From assembly GCF_016859125.1 (NCBI RefSeq), contig NZ_CP069338.1:1550001-1614000 (forward strand): DNA of 64,000 nucleotides, in the 5' to 3' direction. Position numbers and translations under genes: made by a program. Positions 32,891 through 40,403 of this stretch are shown here, one piece after another. The notes beneath the pieces were generated by a model. It saw only the letters and a list, made by a program, of their open reading frames with translations, had not been told where the DNA came from and did no database searches. The DNA comes from Archangium violaceum (GTDB lineage Bacteria; Myxococcota; Myxococcia; Myxococcales; Myxococcaceae). Within the stretch, counting starts at the first letter, position 1. Each line of letters starts with the position of its first letter.

Positions 32891-34180
32891 CTATTGCTTC
32901 TGGACGAGGACGAGCCGGCTGCCGTTCTTGTCCTTCACGCCCACGAGCAGATTCGTGCCCAGCGGGGCCATCAACACCACGTTGGTGCAGGTATTCTGGG
33001 TGGTGAGCACGGGCGCGAGCTCGCCCACGACGACCGCCTTCGGCTCGATGCCCGTCGTCAGCTCGATGCGCGAGACATCGTTCGTGAGCGCATTGAACGA
33101 CGCATCGTAATGGCCACGGTGGAGCGCCACACCCTGACCAAAGCCGGCCACCGCGAAGAGATCACTGCCCGCGTAGATCTCCGGAGCATTCTCCGCGGTG
33201 AGCGCCAGGGTCGTACCGCCCGAGAGCGCCGGCGTGTACGTCGCGGGGGCCACCGCGAGCAGGTGGTTGATGTAGGGGTCGAACGGGCCCGAGGGGTTGG
33301 GAACGCTGTATCCGAGCACGGCGATCTCCTGGCTCGTCGCCGCCGTGTAGCCGCTGGCGGGAGCATCCACCGGGAAGGTCGCCAGCTTCGACCCCTGGAA
33401 GGGAGGTGTCCCGGTCTTCAACGCGTAGACGCCACTGCCCCCCTCGGAGGAACCCTCGACGCCCTGGCCGTTGAACAGGAAGGCCCCGGAGACACCGACC
33501 GCGGAGAAGTTGCCGTTCGCGGACACGTGGGAGGACTTATCCGGGCTGGCCGTGTCGTACACCAGGACCGAGCCAGGGATGTTCTCGATGGGGCCCGACT
33601 TCGTGTAGCCGGCGAGCAGCCGGGTGCCATCGTTGGCCAGGAAGCCGCTCAAATACGTGCTGCTGCCACGATCCGCCTCGGGGATGACGGCTTGCAGGGG
33701 CGTCGTGCTGGCGACGATGTTGGGCCAGGTGCCGAGCTCGTAGAGGCTGTTGTCGGTTCCTCCGCTCAGGCCGTACAGCTTGAACTCGGCGCCGCTCGGG
33801 ATGGCCGTCACCGCGATGAGTCCCTCGGGGAGCGCGGCGGACTCGGCGGCGGCGTAGCCCGTCTGGAGCTGCAGCGTGCCGAGCTTCTCGTCATGTGGCA
33901 GGTCCGCGCACGCGACTCCCGCGTCGGTGCCCGCGTCGTCCGTCGGCTCGTTACCGCCATCCGTCGGCCCGGTGCCCGCATCCGTGACGTCCCGCTCCAC
34001 GCAGCGGTTGTCCTGGCACACGTACTCCTGCCCCTTGGGAAGCGTGCCCCTCTGGGCGATGCAGTCGAACTGGTCGATGCACTCCTGAGTACAGCCGGTG
34101 CCCAGCAGCCCCAGCGACAAGGCACCCAGGACCCATACGAAGCGACCCACCCCTCGCGAACCCATCATTGCTGTCTTCAT
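32891..34180 (-). CDS. Secreted lipoprotein, beta-rich, function unknown
   Basis: A 429-residue lipoprotein starting at the ATG at 34178-34180. Signal segment FVWVLGALSLGLLGTGC with a lipobox at Cys28. A short Cys-containing stretch (CIDQFDCIAQ, YVCQDNRCVERD) and an Asp/Gly/Thr-rich linker (TDAGTGPTDGGNEPTDDAGTDAG) lead to a beta-rich domain of about 330 residues with repeated hydrophobic strands, possibly a propeller. It is the first gene of a two-gene unit with 32205-32888 and lies immediately downstream of the tRNA cluster. Confidence 0.75.
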   Translation of the reverse strand: MKTAMMGSRGVGRFVWVLGALSLGLLGTGCTQECIDQFDCIAQRGTLPKGQEYVCQDNRCVERDVTDAGTGPTDGGNEPTDDAGTDAGVACADLPHDEKLGTLQLQTGYAAAESAALPEGLIAVTAIPSGAEFKLYGLSGGTDNSLYELGTWPNIVASTTPLQAVIPEADRGSSTYLSGFLANDGTRLLAGYTKSGPIENIPGSVLVYDTASPDKSSHVSANGNFSAVGVSGAFLFNGQGVEGSSEGGSGVYALKTGTPPFQGSKLATFPVDAPASGYTAATSQEIAVLGYSVPNPSGPFDPYINHLLAVAPATYTPALSGGTTLALTAENAPEIYAGSDLFAVAGFGQGVALHRGHYDASFNALTNDVSRIELTTGIEPKAVVVGELAPVLTTQNTCTNVVLMAPLGTNLLVGVKDKNGSRLVLVQKQ

Positions 34181-34313
34181 GCGCGTCCCGCTCCTCATGT
34201 GGAGTAACCGAAGAGGGGGGCGCGGATACGGCGGCGGGGCAGGTCTTGTCAAATGCTCCGTCCACCTCGCACCAGGAGTGGGCCTCGCGTGGAGGATGGA
34301 CGACAATGAGGAG

Positions 34314-34388
34314 TACCGCGGGCGGGATTCGAACCCGCAACCTCTGCGTTCTGAGCGCAGCACCTCTACCAGGTTGGGCTACCGCGGC
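34314..34388 (-). tRNA. Atypical tRNA, anticodon CAG, short variable loop
   Basis: A 75-nt cloverleaf on the minus strand: acceptor GCCGCGG/CCGCGGT, anticodon stem CTGCG/CGCAG with loop CTCAGAA (anticodon CAG), a 5-base variable region AGGTT, T-arm GCGGG-TTCGAAT-CCCGC, discriminator A, no encoded CCA. The anticodon is leucine-type, but bacterial tRNA-Leu normally has a long variable arm, which this lacks. The D-stem has one mismatch. Amino-acid identity is uncertain. Confidence 0.75.
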
Positions 34389-34406
34389 GTGTGTTTCGAC
34401 TGCGAG

Positions 34407-34481
34407 TGCCGAAGGCGGGATTCGAACCCGCAACCACCAGACTCTCGATCTGGGGCCTCTACCGAGTTGGGCTACTTCGGC
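34407..34481 (-). tRNA. Atypical tRNA, anticodon GAG, C33, short variable loop
   Basis: A 75-nt cloverleaf: acceptor GCCGAAG/CTTCGGC, anticodon stem CCAGA/TCTGG with loop TCGAGAG (anticodon GAG). C stands at position 33 where U is nearly universal. The variable region TGGTT is 5 bases and the T-arm is identical to the neighbouring tRNA at 34314. Discriminator A; no encoded CCA. It may be a diverged paralogue, a pseudogene or a specialised tRNA. Confidence 0.7.
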
Positions 34482-34522
34482 GGGACTGCGCTCCAATCGC
34501 ATCCAGGAGCGTGTGCTGCGAG

Positions 34523-34595
34523 TACCCCGTACGGGAGTCGAACCCGTCTTTCCGCATTGAGAGCGCGGTGTCCTTCGCCGATAGACGAACGGGGC
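34523..34595 (-). tRNA. tRNA-Glu (CTC)
   Basis: A 73-nt cloverleaf: acceptor GCCCCGT/ACGGGGT, D-arm region TTCGTCTA and AGGACACC as in bacterial tRNA-Glu, anticodon stem CCGCG/TGCGG with loop CTCTCAA (anticodon CTC), T-arm ACGGG-TTCGACT-CCCGT, discriminator A. Glutamate identity fits both anticodon and body. The bases after the 3' end (CTCGCAG) also follow the tRNA at 34407, hinting at a shared processing unit. Confidence 0.9.
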
Positions 34596-34879: not shown

Positions 34880-35938
34880 TCAGGCCGCCGTGAGCCGCCC
34901 GCGCCGGTACAGGAGCGCGAGGAACAGCGGCCCCCCCAGCAGCGCCGTCACCACGCCCACGGGGGGATCGCCGCCGAACAGCGGGAAGGTCAGCCGCGCC
35001 AGCAGGTCCGCGAGCATGAGGAACGCCGCGCCTCCGAGCGCGGAGAGCGGAACGAGCAGCCGCTGGTCCGGCCCGAAGGCGAGCCGCAGCAGGTGGGGCA
35101 CGATGAGCCCCACGAAGCCGATGAGCCCCGAGAGCGCCACGGCACCGGCCACGCTGGCGCTCGCGGCGAGGAGCAACAACCGCCGCGTGCTCGCCACGGA
35201 CACGCCGAGCGAGGCCGCGTCCTCGTCTCCCAGCGTGAGCAGGTTGAGTCGTCCTGAAAGCGCGAGCATCACACCGATGGCCGCGACCTGGAGGAGCACG
35301 GACAGGGCGAGCGTTCCAGCGCGCTCGTGGCCGAGGGTTCCCGCGAGCCAGTGGAGGATCGCCCCCAGCTGGTTCGGGTCGGAGAGCGTCTTGATAAGCG
35401 TGATGACCGCGGACGCGAAGGAATTGAAGACGACGCCGATGAGGAGCGCGACATCGGGCGTACGGCCCCCATGGCCGCGGCTCGCGGCGAGCACGAAGAG
35501 CATGGCCGCCACGGCCCCCACGAAGGCGAACAGCGTCGGTGCGGAGAGGCGCGCCAGCCCGCCCCCGAGGTCTGGAGCCACCTCACCCACGGAGGCGAGC
35601 CCCACGGCCAGGGCCAGGGTGGCCCCGAGCGCCGCGCCGCCAGAGACGCCGAGGATGAAGGGGTCCGCCAGCGGGTTGCGCAGCACGCCCTGCAGTGTGG
35701 TCCCGGAGGCGGCGAGCCCCGCGCCGACGAGGGCCGCCAGCACGGCGCGCGGCATCCGGACGGACCAGAAGATGAGGGCGTCCTTGGACGTGGGCTTCCC
35801 GAACAAGGCGGAGTGAAGGGAGATGGGCTGATCCCCGAAGCGGACGGACACGAGGAACGCCACGAGCATCAGGACGAGGAACACCCCGCAGAGCCCGAGC
35901 ACCCGCGCCAACGTGAAGCCCTTGCCCCGCTCTCGCAT
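34880..35938 (-). CDS. btuC: FecCD/BtuC-family ABC importer permease
   Basis: A 352-residue inner-membrane permease with 9-10 hydrophobic segments. Family motifs are RMPRAVLAALVGAGLAASGTTLQGVLRNPLADPFILGVSGGAA near the N-terminus and GLIGFVGLIVPHLLRL near the C-terminus. The ATG at 35936-35938 comes 2 bp after the binding-protein stop. It would form a homodimeric channel with two ATPase subunits. Operon position behind a cobalamin riboswitch supports vitamin B12 as substrate. No ATPase gene follows; the best candidate is at 26590-27381. Confidence 0.9.
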   Translation of the reverse strand: MRERGKGFTLARVLGLCGVFLVLMLVAFLVSVRFGDQPISLHSALFGKPTSKDALIFWSVRMPRAVLAALVGAGLAASGTTLQGVLRNPLADPFILGVSGGAALGATLALAVGLASVGEVAPDLGGGLARLSAPTLFAFVGAVAAMLFVLAASRGHGGRTPDVALLIGVVFNSFASAVITLIKTLSDPNQLGAILHWLAGTLGHERAGTLALSVLLQVAAIGVMLALSGRLNLLTLGDEDAASLGVSVASTRRLLLLAASASVAGAVALSGLIGFVGLIVPHLLRLAFGPDQRLLVPLSALGGAAFLMLADLLARLTFPLFGGDPPVGVVTALLGGPLFLALLYRRGRLTAA

Positions 35939-35940
35939 GG

Positions 35941-36813
35941 CTAGCGCGCGATCCCCGCGTCGGGCTTCACGGTGGGGTGCAGCAACTGGAACAGCTCCTC
36001 CAGCCCGCGACCCAGCGAGGGCCCCGGCTGGAGCAGCGCCATGGACGGCACCTCCACCCACCGGGACTCGGAGAGGAGCGCGCGCAGCGTGTCCTTGCCC
36101 ACGTCCACGTCCGAGGCATCCACCACCACGTCCGGCGAGACCCCCACCGCGCGCTCGACGGGATAGACGGGGTAGGCCCCACTCGCGTCCGCCGCCACGT
36201 TGCGGGCTCCCGCATCGCGCAGCAGCTCGTCCGCGAAGGAGCCGGGGCCGGCGACGACGAGCGGCGTGAAGCCATAGACGAACAGGACGCGCGGCGACTC
36301 GAGCTTCCTGGAGGCCTCGCGGATGCGGACGCGGGTGGACTCGATGCGCTGCACGAGGGCGGCGGCCTCCGTCTCCTTCCCAAGGGCCTTGCCCACGGCG
36401 CGGAGGGCGGCCAGGGTATCGGCCACGGTGTGCAGGGGCAGCAACAGCACGGGGATGCCGAGCTCGGCCAGCTTCTCCACGGACCGCTGGTTGCCCGGCC
36501 CCGGCTGGACGAGCACGAGGTCCGGCTCGAGGGCCACTACCGCCTCGATGGAAGGGTCGATGAAGCCGCCCACGCGAGGCAGTCCGGCCACCTCCTTGGC
36601 CTCATCGAAGCGGGAGACCCCCACGAGGGTGCTCCCCGCTCCGAGCGCCATCACCGTCTCCGTGAACGACGGGGCGAGCGTCACCACGCGCTTCACCTTC
36701 TCGGGAGGCTTGGGGCCGAGGAAGCGGGGACCTCCCTTGGGGGGAGCGGCGCGCGCGGCGGTGACGAGGCAGAGCGCGGCGAGCAGGACGAACGGAACGA
36801 GGCGGGTCTTCAT
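35941..36813 (-). CDS. btuF: BtuF-like periplasmic cobalamin-binding protein
   Basis: A 290-residue exported protein. The signal peptide is MKTRLVPFVLLAALCLVTAARA. The mature domain starts with the class III binding-protein pattern (RVVTLAPSFTETVMALGAG, VGVSRFDEAKEVAGLPRVGG, IEAVVALEPDLVLV) and ends in a second lobe (SPDVVVDASDVDVG). It delivers ligand to the coupled permease (2-bp gap). Cobalamin as ligand is inferred from the upstream riboswitch and TonB receptor; a siderophore-binding role is the main alternative. Confidence 0.88.
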   Translation of the reverse strand: MKTRLVPFVLLAALCLVTAARAAPPKGGPRFLGPKPPEKVKRVVTLAPSFTETVMALGAGSTLVGVSRFDEAKEVAGLPRVGGFIDPSIEAVVALEPDLVLVQPGPGNQRSVEKLAELGIPVLLLPLHTVADTLAALRAVGKALGKETEAAALVQRIESTRVRIREASRKLESPRVLFVYGFTPLVVAGPGSFADELLRDAGARNVAADASGAYPVYPVERAVGVSPDVVVDASDVDVGKDTLRALLSESRWVEVPSMALLQPGPSLGRGLEELFQLLHPTVKPDAGIAR

Positions 36814-36822
36814 GAGGGAGTC

Positions 36823-38415
36823 TCAGGGAATCGCGATGACGTCACCGACGAGGGAGGGCCCATTGTTCCGAGGGCAGACGAGGAGGGGGGGCGCGGCACC
36901 GGGCCCCAGCCCGCGCCGCTCCACGAGCGAGTCACCCACCACCTCGATGACGAAGACACGGCCCGCGTTGTTGTCACCCACGTAGGCGCGGTTGCCCACC
37001 ACGGAAAAACGGCCCGCGGAGGCGCGCTGGCACGAGGTCCCCTCCGGGCACCGCAGCGCGAGCGAGTCGAGCACGTGGTCATCCGCGTCGAGCAGCACCA
37101 GCCCGGTCCCCTTCACGTCGATGAGGTTGAAGTTGCGGTCATAGGTCGCGGCGCCGCTACAGCTCACGAGAAGCCGCTCGCCCACGGGGACGACCCAGAA
37201 CGGGTTGAGACACTCCTCGCCGAGCGCGATGAGACGCATCTCGCGGGTGGTGAGATCGATGCGGACCAGGAAACCGGGGCCTCCCACGGAGAAGTTCCCG
37301 GGCTCCAGGTTGCCGAGCGCGACGTACATCCAGCCCCGGCGCATGGCGATCCCCGCGGGCGCGGGAACGGTGGTGCGACCCTGAAAGGGCATCAGGGCCT
37401 CGCCCGTGGGCAACTTGAAGACGTCCGTGATGACGGGCCGGGTGGGGTCCGCCACCGAGACCCGGACCACCCGTCCACCCGCGGAGGAATCCGTCTGCAG
37501 GTTGCCCAGCAGCGTGACGTAGGCATCCGAGCCCTGCAATGCGAACGCATAGGGGTTGGTGTTCGCACCGAAATTCACGCTGCCCACGTCGGTGAGCGTG
37601 ACGCCCTTGGGGAACTGCGGGCTGTGGTTGAAGGAGGGCGCATCCTTCCGCTGGAGGATCTGGAGGGTGTTGCTCGTGGAGTTGAGGATGTAGACGTAGG
37701 GCTCCTCGACGAGCAGGTGATTGGGGACCAGGCCCGTGGTGTTGCGTGCCTCCAGCTCGCCGTAGTCGATGAGCCGGGCCTGGAGCAGCCTCGAGGAGGC
37801 ATCCAGCACCAGCAGCACATCCTGCATGCGCGCGACGGTCAGGGGACTGGTCCCCACGGCCATCGCGGGTCCCTTCACGTCCGACTCCGCCTGGATGCCC
37901 ACCACCTGCCCGGTGTTGAAGCACGCGGCGACGACGTCATAGGTGCAGATGCCGCCCCTGCAACTCCGGGAGTCCGCGCACACGTTCCCGCAGGCACCAC
38001 AGTTGAAGGCATCCGTGTCCGGGTCCACGCACGAGCGCCCACAGAGCTTGGAGTCCGCCAGGGTGCAGGAGTCCTTGCACTGCCCCTGCTCGCACACCTG
38101 CTCCGGCGAGCACGCCGCGCCCCCCGCTCCCGCGCATCCACCGCAGTGGGACGGGTCCGACGCGGTGACGACGCACTGCCCATCGCACAGCGTGGCCCCC
38201 GCGCGGCAGCGGCAGGCGCTCTCGATACAGACCTCGGTGGCGGAGCAGGCCACGTCACAGGCGCCACAGTCGGAGGAAGCGCTGGAAAGGTCCACGCACC
38301 TATTGCCGCCGCAGAGCGTGAGCCCCTCGGAGCACAGGAACTCATCCGTCGGGCACCCGGCCAGCAGCGCGGACCCCATCACCAGCAACAGAACCCCGAG
38401 GGCTCCTCCTCTCAT
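36823..38415 (-). CDS. Surface lipoprotein with Cys-rich N-terminus and beta-propeller, BtuG-like context
   Basis: A 530-residue lipoprotein: signal with lipobox LLAGC (Cys21). About 130 Cys-rich residues follow, in repeated modules (CGGNRCVDLSSASSDCGAC, CRAGATLCDGQC, CGRSCVDPDTDAFNCGAC). The remaining 370 residues form a YncE-like beta-propeller (LLVLDASSRLLQARL, YVYILNSTSNTLQILQ, RAYVGDNNAGRVFVIEV). The ATG overlaps the TonB receptor stop (ATGA). In Bacteroides, BtuG is a propeller lipoprotein that caps BtuB and binds B12. Shared fold and operon position suggest an analogous role here, but this is an inference. Confidence 0.82.
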   Translation of the reverse strand: MRGGALGVLLLVMGSALLAGCPTDEFLCSEGLTLCGGNRCVDLSSASSDCGACDVACSATEVCIESACRCRAGATLCDGQCVVTASDPSHCGGCAGAGGAACSPEQVCEQGQCKDSCTLADSKLCGRSCVDPDTDAFNCGACGNVCADSRSCRGGICTYDVVAACFNTGQVVGIQAESDVKGPAMAVGTSPLTVARMQDVLLVLDASSRLLQARLIDYGELEARNTTGLVPNHLLVEEPYVYILNSTSNTLQILQRKDAPSFNHSPQFPKGVTLTDVGSVNFGANTNPYAFALQGSDAYVTLLGNLQTDSSAGGRVVRVSVADPTRPVITDVFKLPTGEALMPFQGRTTVPAPAGIAMRRGWMYVALGNLEPGNFSVGGPGFLVRIDLTTREMRLIALGEECLNPFWVVPVGERLLVSCSGAATYDRNFNLIDVKGTGLVLLDADDHVLDSLALRCPEGTSCQRASAGRFSVVGNRAYVGDNNAGRVFVIEVVGDSLVERRGLGPGAAPPLLVCPRNNGPSLVGDVIAIP

Positions 38416-40403
38416 CGTGCCTCCCTCTCGAAAGCACCCGCCACCGACACGTACACGGCGCGGCCGGGGAGCGGGTAACCGACGAAGTCCTCGGCGCGCG
38501 CATCGAGGACATTCTTCACCTCGCAGGAGACCGTGAGCTCCGTGCGCGAGCCGAAGGTGCTGGACACGCCCGCGTGGACGAAGGCACGCCCGGGCAGCGA
38601 CATCGCGCCATCCCGGGTGAGGAAGTGCGCCGACTGGGCCACCAGCTCCACGCGCCCCGTGAGCCACCGGGGTCCACCCAGGACCCGCGCGGACAGCTTG
38701 TGGCGCGGCCGGTAGGGCAGCTCGCGCAGGTAGAAGCGCCCGTCCCGCTGCAGATCGCTCGACACGGTGAGCGTGTAGCTGAAGGCGCCGGAGAGGAACC
38801 GGTGGGGCCGCCACTCGCCCTCGGCCTCCAGCCCCATTACGCGCGCGTTGGCGAAGTTGTACGGCCTGGCCGCGCCGGGCGGGTAGGCCTCGTAGGAGAT
38901 GAGGTCCTCGTAGAGACTGGCGAAGCCCCCCACCGAGGCGAAGGACACCTCCGAGCGATGCACCACCGCCGCGTCCGCGTACAGCGCTCGCTCGGGGCGC
39001 AGGTCCGGGTTGGGCAGCAGCGTGCCCTGACGCACGTACAGCTCCAGGAACGAGGGCGCGCGATGGGAGCGGCCCGCGTTGGCGCGCAGCTCGAAGCCCG
39101 AGGGCAGCAACACGGTGGCGCCCACCTTCGGGGACAGCAGCGTGTACGGGCCCGCCCGCTCCACGCGCAGCGAGGGCGCGACGGTGAGCAGCCCGTCCCA
39201 CAGCAGAACCTCGTCCATCGCCATCACACTGGCGCGCAGCCACGTCGGCTCGCCCTCCGAGGCCTCGGTCGTCTCAGCGGCGGTCACCGACTCACCGCCC
39301 ACGCCCAGCAGCGCGGAGACAGAATGCCACCCGCCCAGCAGCACCTGTCCCTCCACCTCCACCCCGCCCAACCGCTGCACCTGCGGGTCCTCCCCGCTCC
39401 AGGGCCCACCGGACAGCGCCACCCGGTCCCGGCGGAAGTACGCGCGCGCGTTCGTCTGGACTCCCCCCGGCAGCGTGCCCGACAGGCGCAGGTTCGCCGA
39501 GCCCCGCCCTCCGGACTGGCGCGCATCCTCGCTCGGGTTCTGCGCGGTGCCGGCGAGGCCCCGCTCGTCGAAGGAGAGCTCACCCAGCAGATCCGCGGAG
39601 ACGCCTCCCCCCAGCTCGCGCCGCAGCCTCAGCAGTCCCCCCGCCCCCCGCGCGTCGTTGTTGGTGCGATGGCGCTCGAGGAGCGCGTCCCCGGGCAGCG
39701 TGGGGCTCGGATCGAAGAGGTACGGGAAGCGTCCGCTGGAGGTGCCCCCATGGAGGAGCAGCAGCGCCTCGCCTCCCGCGAGCGGCCCCGAGGCCGACAG
39801 CCACCCGAGCCCCGAGTCCCAACTGCCGTAGGACAGCTCTCCCGCCACGCGCGCGTTCGCGCCGGGACGGCGGGTGATGATGTTGATGGCGCCCCCCAAC
39901 CCGCCCGAGCCATAGCGCGCTCCCGCGCCGCCACGCAGCACCTCGAAGCGCTCGGCCAGGGCCGCGGGCACGCGCGACAGGTCCGCGATGCCTCCCGCGC
40001 CATTGAGGGGAATGCCGTCGAGCAGCACCAACGTCCCGTTCGAGGACGCGCCCCGCACCACGACGCTCTTGCTCTGCCCGTAACCCCCCAGGTCCTGCAG
40101 CGTGACGCCGGGCGCGGTGGACAGCATCGCCGCGGTGTCTCGGGCCGCGCCGCCGAACTCGTCCACGCGGATGACGGTGAGGGCGCCGCTCGGGTCACGC
40201 CTCGAGGCCGAGTCCGGGGGCTCGGCGGCGACGGGCGCCTCCTCCACCTCCACGGTGGGAACGAGCAGGGGCTCGCCACCGGAGGAGTCCGAGACGGGAG
40301 GCGTGTCCTGGACAGGAGGCTCCACCGCCTGCTGGGCAAACGCGGAACCGCTCGTGCTGAGCGCCAGGCACAACCACCGCCCGGCGAGGTGCGACCACCG
40401 CAT
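38412..40403 (-). CDS. btuB: TonB-dependent outer-membrane cobalamin receptor
   Basis: A 663-residue receptor with a signal peptide ending SGSAFAQ. A plug domain (about residues 50-180) contains LTVIRVDEFGG, APGVTLQDLGGYGQSKSVVVRG, VLLDGIPLN and RYGSGGLGGAINIITRRPG; the 22-strand barrel region runs to the C-terminus. The ATG at 40401-40403 lies just after a hairpin that could mask its ribosome site. A cobalamin riboswitch lies 63 bp upstream of the start, which makes B12 the probable ligand. First gene of the btuB-propeller lipoprotein-btuF-btuC operon. Confidence 0.92.
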   Translation of the reverse strand: MRWSHLAGRWLCLALSTSGSAFAQQAVEPPVQDTPPVSDSSGGEPLLVPTVEVEEAPVAAEPPDSASRRDPSGALTVIRVDEFGGAARDTAAMLSTAPGVTLQDLGGYGQSKSVVVRGASSNGTLVLLDGIPLNGAGGIADLSRVPAALAERFEVLRGGAGARYGSGGLGGAINIITRRPGANARVAGELSYGSWDSGLGWLSASGPLAGGEALLLLHGGTSSGRFPYLFDPSPTLPGDALLERHRTNNDARGAGGLLRLRRELGGGVSADLLGELSFDERGLAGTAQNPSEDARQSGGRGSANLRLSGTLPGGVQTNARAYFRRDRVALSGGPWSGEDPQVQRLGGVEVEGQVLLGGWHSVSALLGVGGESVTAAETTEASEGEPTWLRASVMAMDEVLLWDGLLTVAPSLRVERAGPYTLLSPKVGATVLLPSGFELRANAGRSHRAPSFLELYVRQGTLLPNPDLRPERALYADAAVVHRSEVSFASVGGFASLYEDLISYEAYPPGAARPYNFANARVMGLEAEGEWRPHRFLSGAFSYTLTVSSDLQRDGRFYLRELPYRPRHKLSARVLGGPRWLTGRVELVAQSAHFLTRDGAMSLPGRAFVHAGVSSTFGSRTELTVSCEVKNVLDARAEDFVGYPLPGRAVYVSVAGAFEREAR

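Follow-up and report, generated by a model that had tools for sequence, protein, structure and literature searches.

The question raised by this locus is whether a lipoprotein that works like BtuG, the corrinoid-capturing partner of the outer-membrane receptor BtuB, occurs outside Bacteroidota. In Bacteroides thetaiotaomicron, BtuG caps BtuB, and corrinoids are bound in the mouth of the propeller that faces the barrel (PMC10404256). Published statements limit BtuG to Bacteroidota, and BtuG itself is employed as a reagent (PMC11287211, PMC13374852); for another B12-binding domain, DUF4465, Myxococcota are named as a minor group of carriers (PMC13398666). A BtuG-like protein in Myxococcota was not among the matches listed in the open-licence literature, from which subscription journals are mostly absent. 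The window analysed here is a stretch of 64,000 nucleotides from Archangium violaceum, whose genome is a single contig of 12.68 Mb.

The operon lies on the minus strand in the order riboswitch, btuB-like gene, propeller lipoprotein gene, btuF-like gene and btuC-like gene. The cobalamin riboswitch aptamer (RF00174, 40455..40611), located 5' of the receptor gene, covered the full model (1-189) with a cmscan score of 71.4 bits (gathering score 31.5). The receptor gene (38412..40403, 663 aa) and the lipoprotein gene (36823..38415, 530 aa and stop) share the tetranucleotide ATGA as stop and start, and GAGAGGGAGG stands immediately 5' of the lipoprotein start; according to the list of open reading frames (ORFs), the lipoprotein frame is also readable from an earlier start codon. 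These are followed by a gene for a btuF-like periplasmic binding protein of 290 aa (35941..36813; Pfam Peripla_BP_2 3.2e-27, NCBIfam BtuF 7.7e-23, under the cut-off) and one for a btuC-like permease (34880..35938, start codon set by inspection; Pfam FecCD 8.2e-82, NCBIfam BtuC 6.3e-69, under the cut-off). The first-pass annotation had described a lipid-anchored propeller gene coupled to a riboswitch-controlled TonB receptor, and the lipobox, the ATGA overlap and RF00174 were all found. Among the 333 ORFs of at least 100 aa in the window, the propeller-family profiles matched this lipoprotein alone (1e-3). Directly 3' of btuC lie three tRNA genes (34314-34595, minus strand); on inspection, an ABC ATPase gene (btuD) was not noticed here. 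Past the tRNA genes, a further lipoprotein, which begins with a short Cys-rich stretch, is encoded on the same strand (32894-34183); Pfam recognised nothing in it up to 0.01, and the propeller profiles did not match it significantly.

The identity of the receptor was examined with Pfam, which recognised the Plug and barrel domains, and with NCBIfam, PDB profile and Foldseek searches. The top NCBIfam match was the BtuB model TonB-B12 (TIGR01779, 1.6e-33), which reached 116.1 bits and so fell under its cut-off of 599.7 bits, yet it led the 32 families that matched at E up to 1. The profile of the receptor family had "Vitamin B12 transporter BtuB" as its best PDB match (4.9e-34), with BtuB chains in the first six places. 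In the Foldseek search with the receptor model (pLDDT 80.7), E. coli BtuB (1nqg) ranked first and B. thetaiotaomicron BtuB3 from the BtuBG complex (8p98_A) second, and FepA-type receptors were mixed in from the third place on. Thus, by profile and by Foldseek, the solved structures nearest to the receptor are B12 transporters.

The lipoprotein comprises a signal peptide with the lipobox LLAGC (38353..38415, minus strand), in which the lipidated Cys is residue 21, a Cys-rich STIG1-like module (residues 22-157, 37945..38352) and a seven-bladed beta-propeller (residues 158-530, 36826..37944). A lipobox was detected by a simple script in 71 of 80 loci and in 32 of 37 named loci. The mature N-terminus of the window protein reads CPTDEF, and the residue after the lipidated Cys was Pro, often followed by Asp or Glu, in 53 of the 71 relatives scored by the script; this Pro, scored on these lipoproteins alone, is possibly a sorting signal. 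The Cys-rich module, put at about 130 residues in the first-pass annotation, is indeed present and measures approximately 136 residues, with matches to Pfam STIG1 (PF04885, three stretches, 1.1e-12) and to NCBIfam NF041328 (residues 12-158; 132.1 bits against a cut-off of 100). STIG1-like modules recur in several genomes of myxobacteria (e.g., G022:C172 and G039:C53), where the open frames that carry them reach 1801 aa. In the plasmid collection, the window lipoprotein was matched via Cys-module stretches only, in two Sandaracinus records, and the protein of locus L178 was not matched.

The 373-residue propeller part remained unnamed in single-sequence searches of Pfam, NCBIfam and PDB; the nearest NCBIfam result was a sub-threshold YVTN repeat (0.046), and the whole lipoprotein as a single-sequence query gave no PDB match. 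The AlphaFold2 model, computed from 33 sequences (window and named loci), had a pLDDT of 93.3 and a pTM of 0.92. Seven blades were counted from the DSSP strand list of this predicted model, in which the C-terminal strand closes the first blade. A strong signature of the family is a long loop joining strands 2 and 3 of blade 5 (YVALGNL...GPGFLVRI, residues 364-387, 37255..37326, minus strand; located by conservation, with strands from the model), in which N212 and G222 are invariant and G224 almost invariant (A1/A2 numbering). Conservation was weakly biased toward one propeller face (p 0.03 and 0.005), and the net charge was negative in each propeller listed, a value to which no weight is given.

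Comparison of the model with solved structures placed BtuG first or further down, depending on the method. Foldseek ranked BtuG3 with cyanocobalamin first (8okv_B, 9.4e-12; TM-score 0.65 by target length and 0.44 by query length), followed by the archaeal YVTN propeller 1l0q and then BtuG2 chains, several of them within the first 20; the zinc chaperone AztD was tenth, and BAM-complex propellers came further down. In the VIA-align superposition, BtuG was not at the top: 1l0q reached Z 34.1, lactonases 31-34 and BtuG2 29.6. This order differs from that of Foldseek; the propeller fold is secure, yet BtuG is not singled out by superposition. The first-pass term "YncE-like" applies to a seven-bladed propeller and not in any closer sense.

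Among the profiles of the family, those of three subfamilies (A2, A5 and A7) reached BtuG chains in PDB. Profile A2 matched 1l0q (1.2e-18) and BtuG1 chains (7.7e-9) and nothing else in PDB at 1e-5, while its sister profile A1 matched other propellers from 8e-6 onward. Profile A5, made from relatives shifted by one blade, matched 1l0q (1.1e-7) and then BtuG1 (5e-6). Profile A7 matched 1l0q, a designed propeller (4.5e-4), BtuG3 (0.0079) and BtuG2 chains (near 0.05), together with weak unrelated entries such as RXR-alpha, and profile A6, from four of the most divergent relatives, had no PDB match up to 0.1. In every family profile with matches, 1l0q ranked above BtuG, as did the designed propeller in A7. 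For scale, a fragment of BtuG1 used by itself reaches BtuG2/3 with E-values between about 9e-6 and 2e-4. A single small control, built on a propeller of the same genome that has no relation to B12 (one profile of four sequences, 83-86% identical, from a family present in 4 of 59 relatives), matched 1l0q, hydrazine synthase and NirF, and no BtuG up to 0.1.

Family models and export signals were less favourable to the likeness. The Pfam model PF16819 (DUF5074) has been tied to B12-locus propellers (PMC13398666); it gave no match in the window lipoprotein up to E=10 and stayed below its cut-off everywhere in the genome. The best DUF5074 scores among relatives were 0.12 (one of 33) and 8.7e-4 (one of five), and ten divergent propeller ORFs had no Pfam match up to 0.01. 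Since both the DUF5074 model and the Bacteroidetes lipoprotein export signal were tested and neither was found, the protein is not filed in the BtuG family. The core of the first-pass proposal, a BtuG-like BtuB partner outside Bacteroidota, is well supported, and the first-pass interpretation as a whole holds in part: operon pairing, fold, co-divergence and the BtuG matches speak for that partner, and the results for DUF5074 and for the export signal do not.

The distribution of the pair was examined across Myxococcota. The window protein was matched by 114 of 116 relatives, many via the Cys module only; a propeller-only profile matched 143 of 147 genomes of the class (1e-8) and 153 of 195 of the phylum (1e-10). 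Two of the four class genomes missed by the profile carry the propeller after all (L230 and L231, both among the 15 propeller-blind loci described below), and the other two, 85% and 69% complete, had neither a riboswitch nor a BtuB match. Of 120 Myxococcota loci, chosen by propeller match as a subset of the matches listed, 118 have btuB immediately upstream in the same orientation, namely 117 by script (btuB stop no more than 1500 bases from the propeller domain, lipoprotein found in 119 of 120) and L206 by hand with filters off. The two exceptions are L095, which lies where a contig begins, and L094. The latter (L094:4997-6742, genome G014) is a second copy of the propeller lipoprotein gene, followed by btuC and with no credible btuB match upstream. 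A scan of genome contigs with two patterns from closer relatives gave 37 named loci, 36 of them myxobacterial records, which overlap the 120; all 37 have btuB upstream, including the Myxococcus xanthus record L138. The remaining record, L146 (BNCN01000012.1, titled Comamonas sp.), has a Myxococcus-like btuB-propeller locus and is probably mislabelled. In the small 2.1 Mb genome of L098 (80-4673), one btuB is flanked by two propeller genes.

Of the 41 loci searched for the riboswitch, 39 have it upstream of btuB (14/14, 13/14 and 12/13), the two misses being L188, where the contig ends at the btuB 5' end, and L114. Some Myxococcus genomes carry a second btuB-propeller pair (L036, L056, L114, also L115 and L118), which is nearer in sequence to the window pair than is the other pair of those genomes; three of these (L114, L036, L056) had no cobalamin riboswitch even at E=1, and L036 has a CobB/CbiA-like gene and a BtuF-like gene nearby. 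The co-occurrence of the pair behind cobalamin riboswitches in Myxococcota, which the first-pass annotation had proposed to check, is borne out by these counts.

As these loci were selected by the propeller, a propeller-blind set was also analysed, in which 20 of the 42 profile-negative phylum genomes and six positives were searched for riboswitch and BtuB. The 20 negative genomes contained 25 riboswitch places in 16 genomes; 18 loci, which cover 19 of these places, were taken irrespective of propellers, and six places were omitted as no BtuB match was present on the contig. BtuB was present in 15 of the 18 loci (L244, L246 and L247 had none), and all 15 carry a divergent propeller-family ORF directly behind BtuB. 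No other ORF of the 546 of at least 100 aa matched the propeller profiles at 1e-3; the E-values come from a small set and from models built on BtuB-linked relatives, so that the positional exclusiveness is what counts. Four negative genomes had no riboswitch (G045, G084, G163 and G165), and G165 has a partial BtuB match. In L232 and L242, two or three lipoprotein-like ORFs stand in tandem behind btuB, and the first alone matches the propeller profiles. Homologues lying mainly outside B12 operons, named at first pass as one outcome that would speak against the idea, were not observed. This near-universal pairing with btuB in the Myxococcota loci examined suggests that a B12-grabbing lid of the BtuG type occurs in a second phylum, beyond gut Bacteroides.

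The architecture of the lipoprotein varies around this constant position. According to the rule of the script, the propeller is circularly permuted in 20 of 120 loci, with breaks near profile position 43 (3 loci), 156-171 (15) and 225 (2); L180 also shows a break of the first kind. In the permuted proteins displayed, and in L107, the lipobox is followed directly by the propeller, and the Cys module is absent or shortened in BtuB-linked relatives of several lineages. The NL...GPG loop of blade 5 is kept across divergent and permuted forms. Because BtuB-linked relatives without the stalk exist, the Cys module is regarded as an addition made in particular lineages, and the constant core is the propeller next to BtuB; judged from these sequences, the module is dispensable. 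A Cys-rich adhesin or prey-binding protein hitchhiking in the operon would fit the many relatives with Cys-module matches in long open frames elsewhere, but the BtuB-linked relatives that lack the module keep the propeller in its usual place, which makes this explanation highly improbable.

Based on this evidence, we lean slightly toward a broader view, in which the lipoprotein-lidded BtuB is no invention of Bacteroidota. Each riboswitch-linked B12 receptor of Myxococcota would have its own propeller lid. Circular permutation would have moved the ends of this lid on three or more occasions, and the Cys-rich stalk that carries it would have been lengthened, shortened or lost, with the coupling to BtuB kept throughout. 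The natural circular permutants and stalk-less forms may reveal the parts needed for the partnership with BtuB.

Co-divergence was evaluated from patristic distances in 46 loci with an adjacent btuF. The correlations, which were made without species-tree control and partly reflect shared descent, were 0.933 for lipoprotein-BtuB, 0.873 for BtuB-BtuF and 0.757 for lipoprotein-BtuF; the partial correlations were 0.854, 0.710 and -0.33, respectively. The bootstrap interval of the difference between the first two pairs was 0.018 to 0.111. In the 31 four-gene loci, the tightest pairs were lipoprotein-BtuB (0.977) and BtuF-BtuC (0.955), the latter being a physical pair, and without the adjacency filter the order was the same with lower BtuF values. 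The propeller tree tracks BtuB better than BtuF, with shared descent contributing in part.

These data bear on where the lipoprotein acts. It could face the periplasm from the outer membrane, bind corrinoids there and hand B12 over from BtuB to BtuF instead of capturing it outside; the place of its gene between btuB and btuF would suit this role (in 119 loci scored, the next matched gene was BtuF in 82 and BtuC in 2). However, divergence together with BtuB and not with BtuF (partial r -0.33) argues against such a relay, as does the extracellular location of BtuG, the best Foldseek match. In Corallococcus, moreover, the btuB-lipoprotein pair is intact where no btuF or btuC match follows within the stretch examined. 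We consider the relay unlikely. That the lipoprotein caps BtuB structurally or helps it to fold, with no corrinoid binding of its own, appears more doubtful still: near-absolute pairing with BtuB would suit such a role, and propellers can be scaffolds, BAM-complex propeller chains being among the Foldseek matches, but the top matches are ligand-bound BtuG chains and one loop signature is retained in divergent and permuted forms, although the former is likeness of fold and the latter conservation, and neither is binding.

The preferred reading, to which we assign a probability of roughly 70%, is that the lipoprotein is a putative functional counterpart of BtuG, capturing corrinoids and partnering BtuB. 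The lipid-anchored seven-bladed propeller would pair with the co-translated BtuB at the outer membrane, capture corrinoids and pass them to BtuB, which would then deliver them to BtuF and BtuC. The propeller may be oriented to the cell surface and act as a lid; surface lipoproteins of myxobacteria exist, e.g., CglB (PMC12288465). In BtuG, the linker from lipid to propeller follows two loops of BtuB and may serve as a hinge (PMC10404256). Because the Cys module sits exactly at the position of this linker, we infer a stalked lid, in which the module, between lipid anchor and propeller, may be a variable stalk or hinge stiffened by disulphides.

The first-pass annotation had also argued that such capture would suit a predator scavenging B12 from prey, and this was not supported. 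The genome contains a cluster of cbiM, CfbA-like chelatase, cbiD, cbiC, cbiL, cbiG, cbiH and cobA-like genes, in which the chelatase and cbiG score under the cut-offs of their models, and the host probably makes corrin. With corrin-synthesis genes present, uptake would spare synthesis, and the argument from predation is weakened. If a BtuB-propeller pair is a feature of Myxococcota as a whole, lid-assisted B12 uptake would be either a more widespread strategy of outer membranes or a remarkable case of convergence, and the presence of the pair in the M. xanthus record would provide a laboratory model outside the gut.

Several known systems resemble the one described here. Closest are BtuG1/2/3 of B. 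thetaiotaomicron, likewise lipid-anchored seven-bladed propellers beside btuB in riboswitch-controlled loci (PMC6143338, PMC10404256). The myxobacterial protein differs in its phylum, in lacking a DUF5074 match and in its long Cys-rich stalk. From the profile alignment, BtuG appears to begin one blade later, as in the L178-type relatives, and BtuG2 has the export signal MKWD after the lipid Cys, whereas the window protein has CPTDEF without the signal. BtuG binds corrinoids at femtomolar to picomolar levels and forms a stable lid complex with BtuB; the likeness of the myxobacterial protein is known from genes and models. XusB with XusA is likewise a propeller lipoprotein with a TonB-dependent transporter (PMC13142918), but it serves iron siderophores in Bacteroidota, and the complex surfaced here only via the XusA chain 9gbc_A as a receptor match. 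NCBIfam NF041328, named for an MXAN_6577-like cysteine-rich protein, spans residues 12-158 and hence the Cys-rich part only, with a description that contains neither propeller nor B12; MXAN_6577 had no mention in the open-licence literature searched. Lastly, YVTN/lactonase-type propellers (1l0q, 6-phosphogluconolactonases and YncE) share the fold and supplied the top superposition and profile matches, but the pairing with btuB was seen here for the myxobacterial lipoprotein and not for these.
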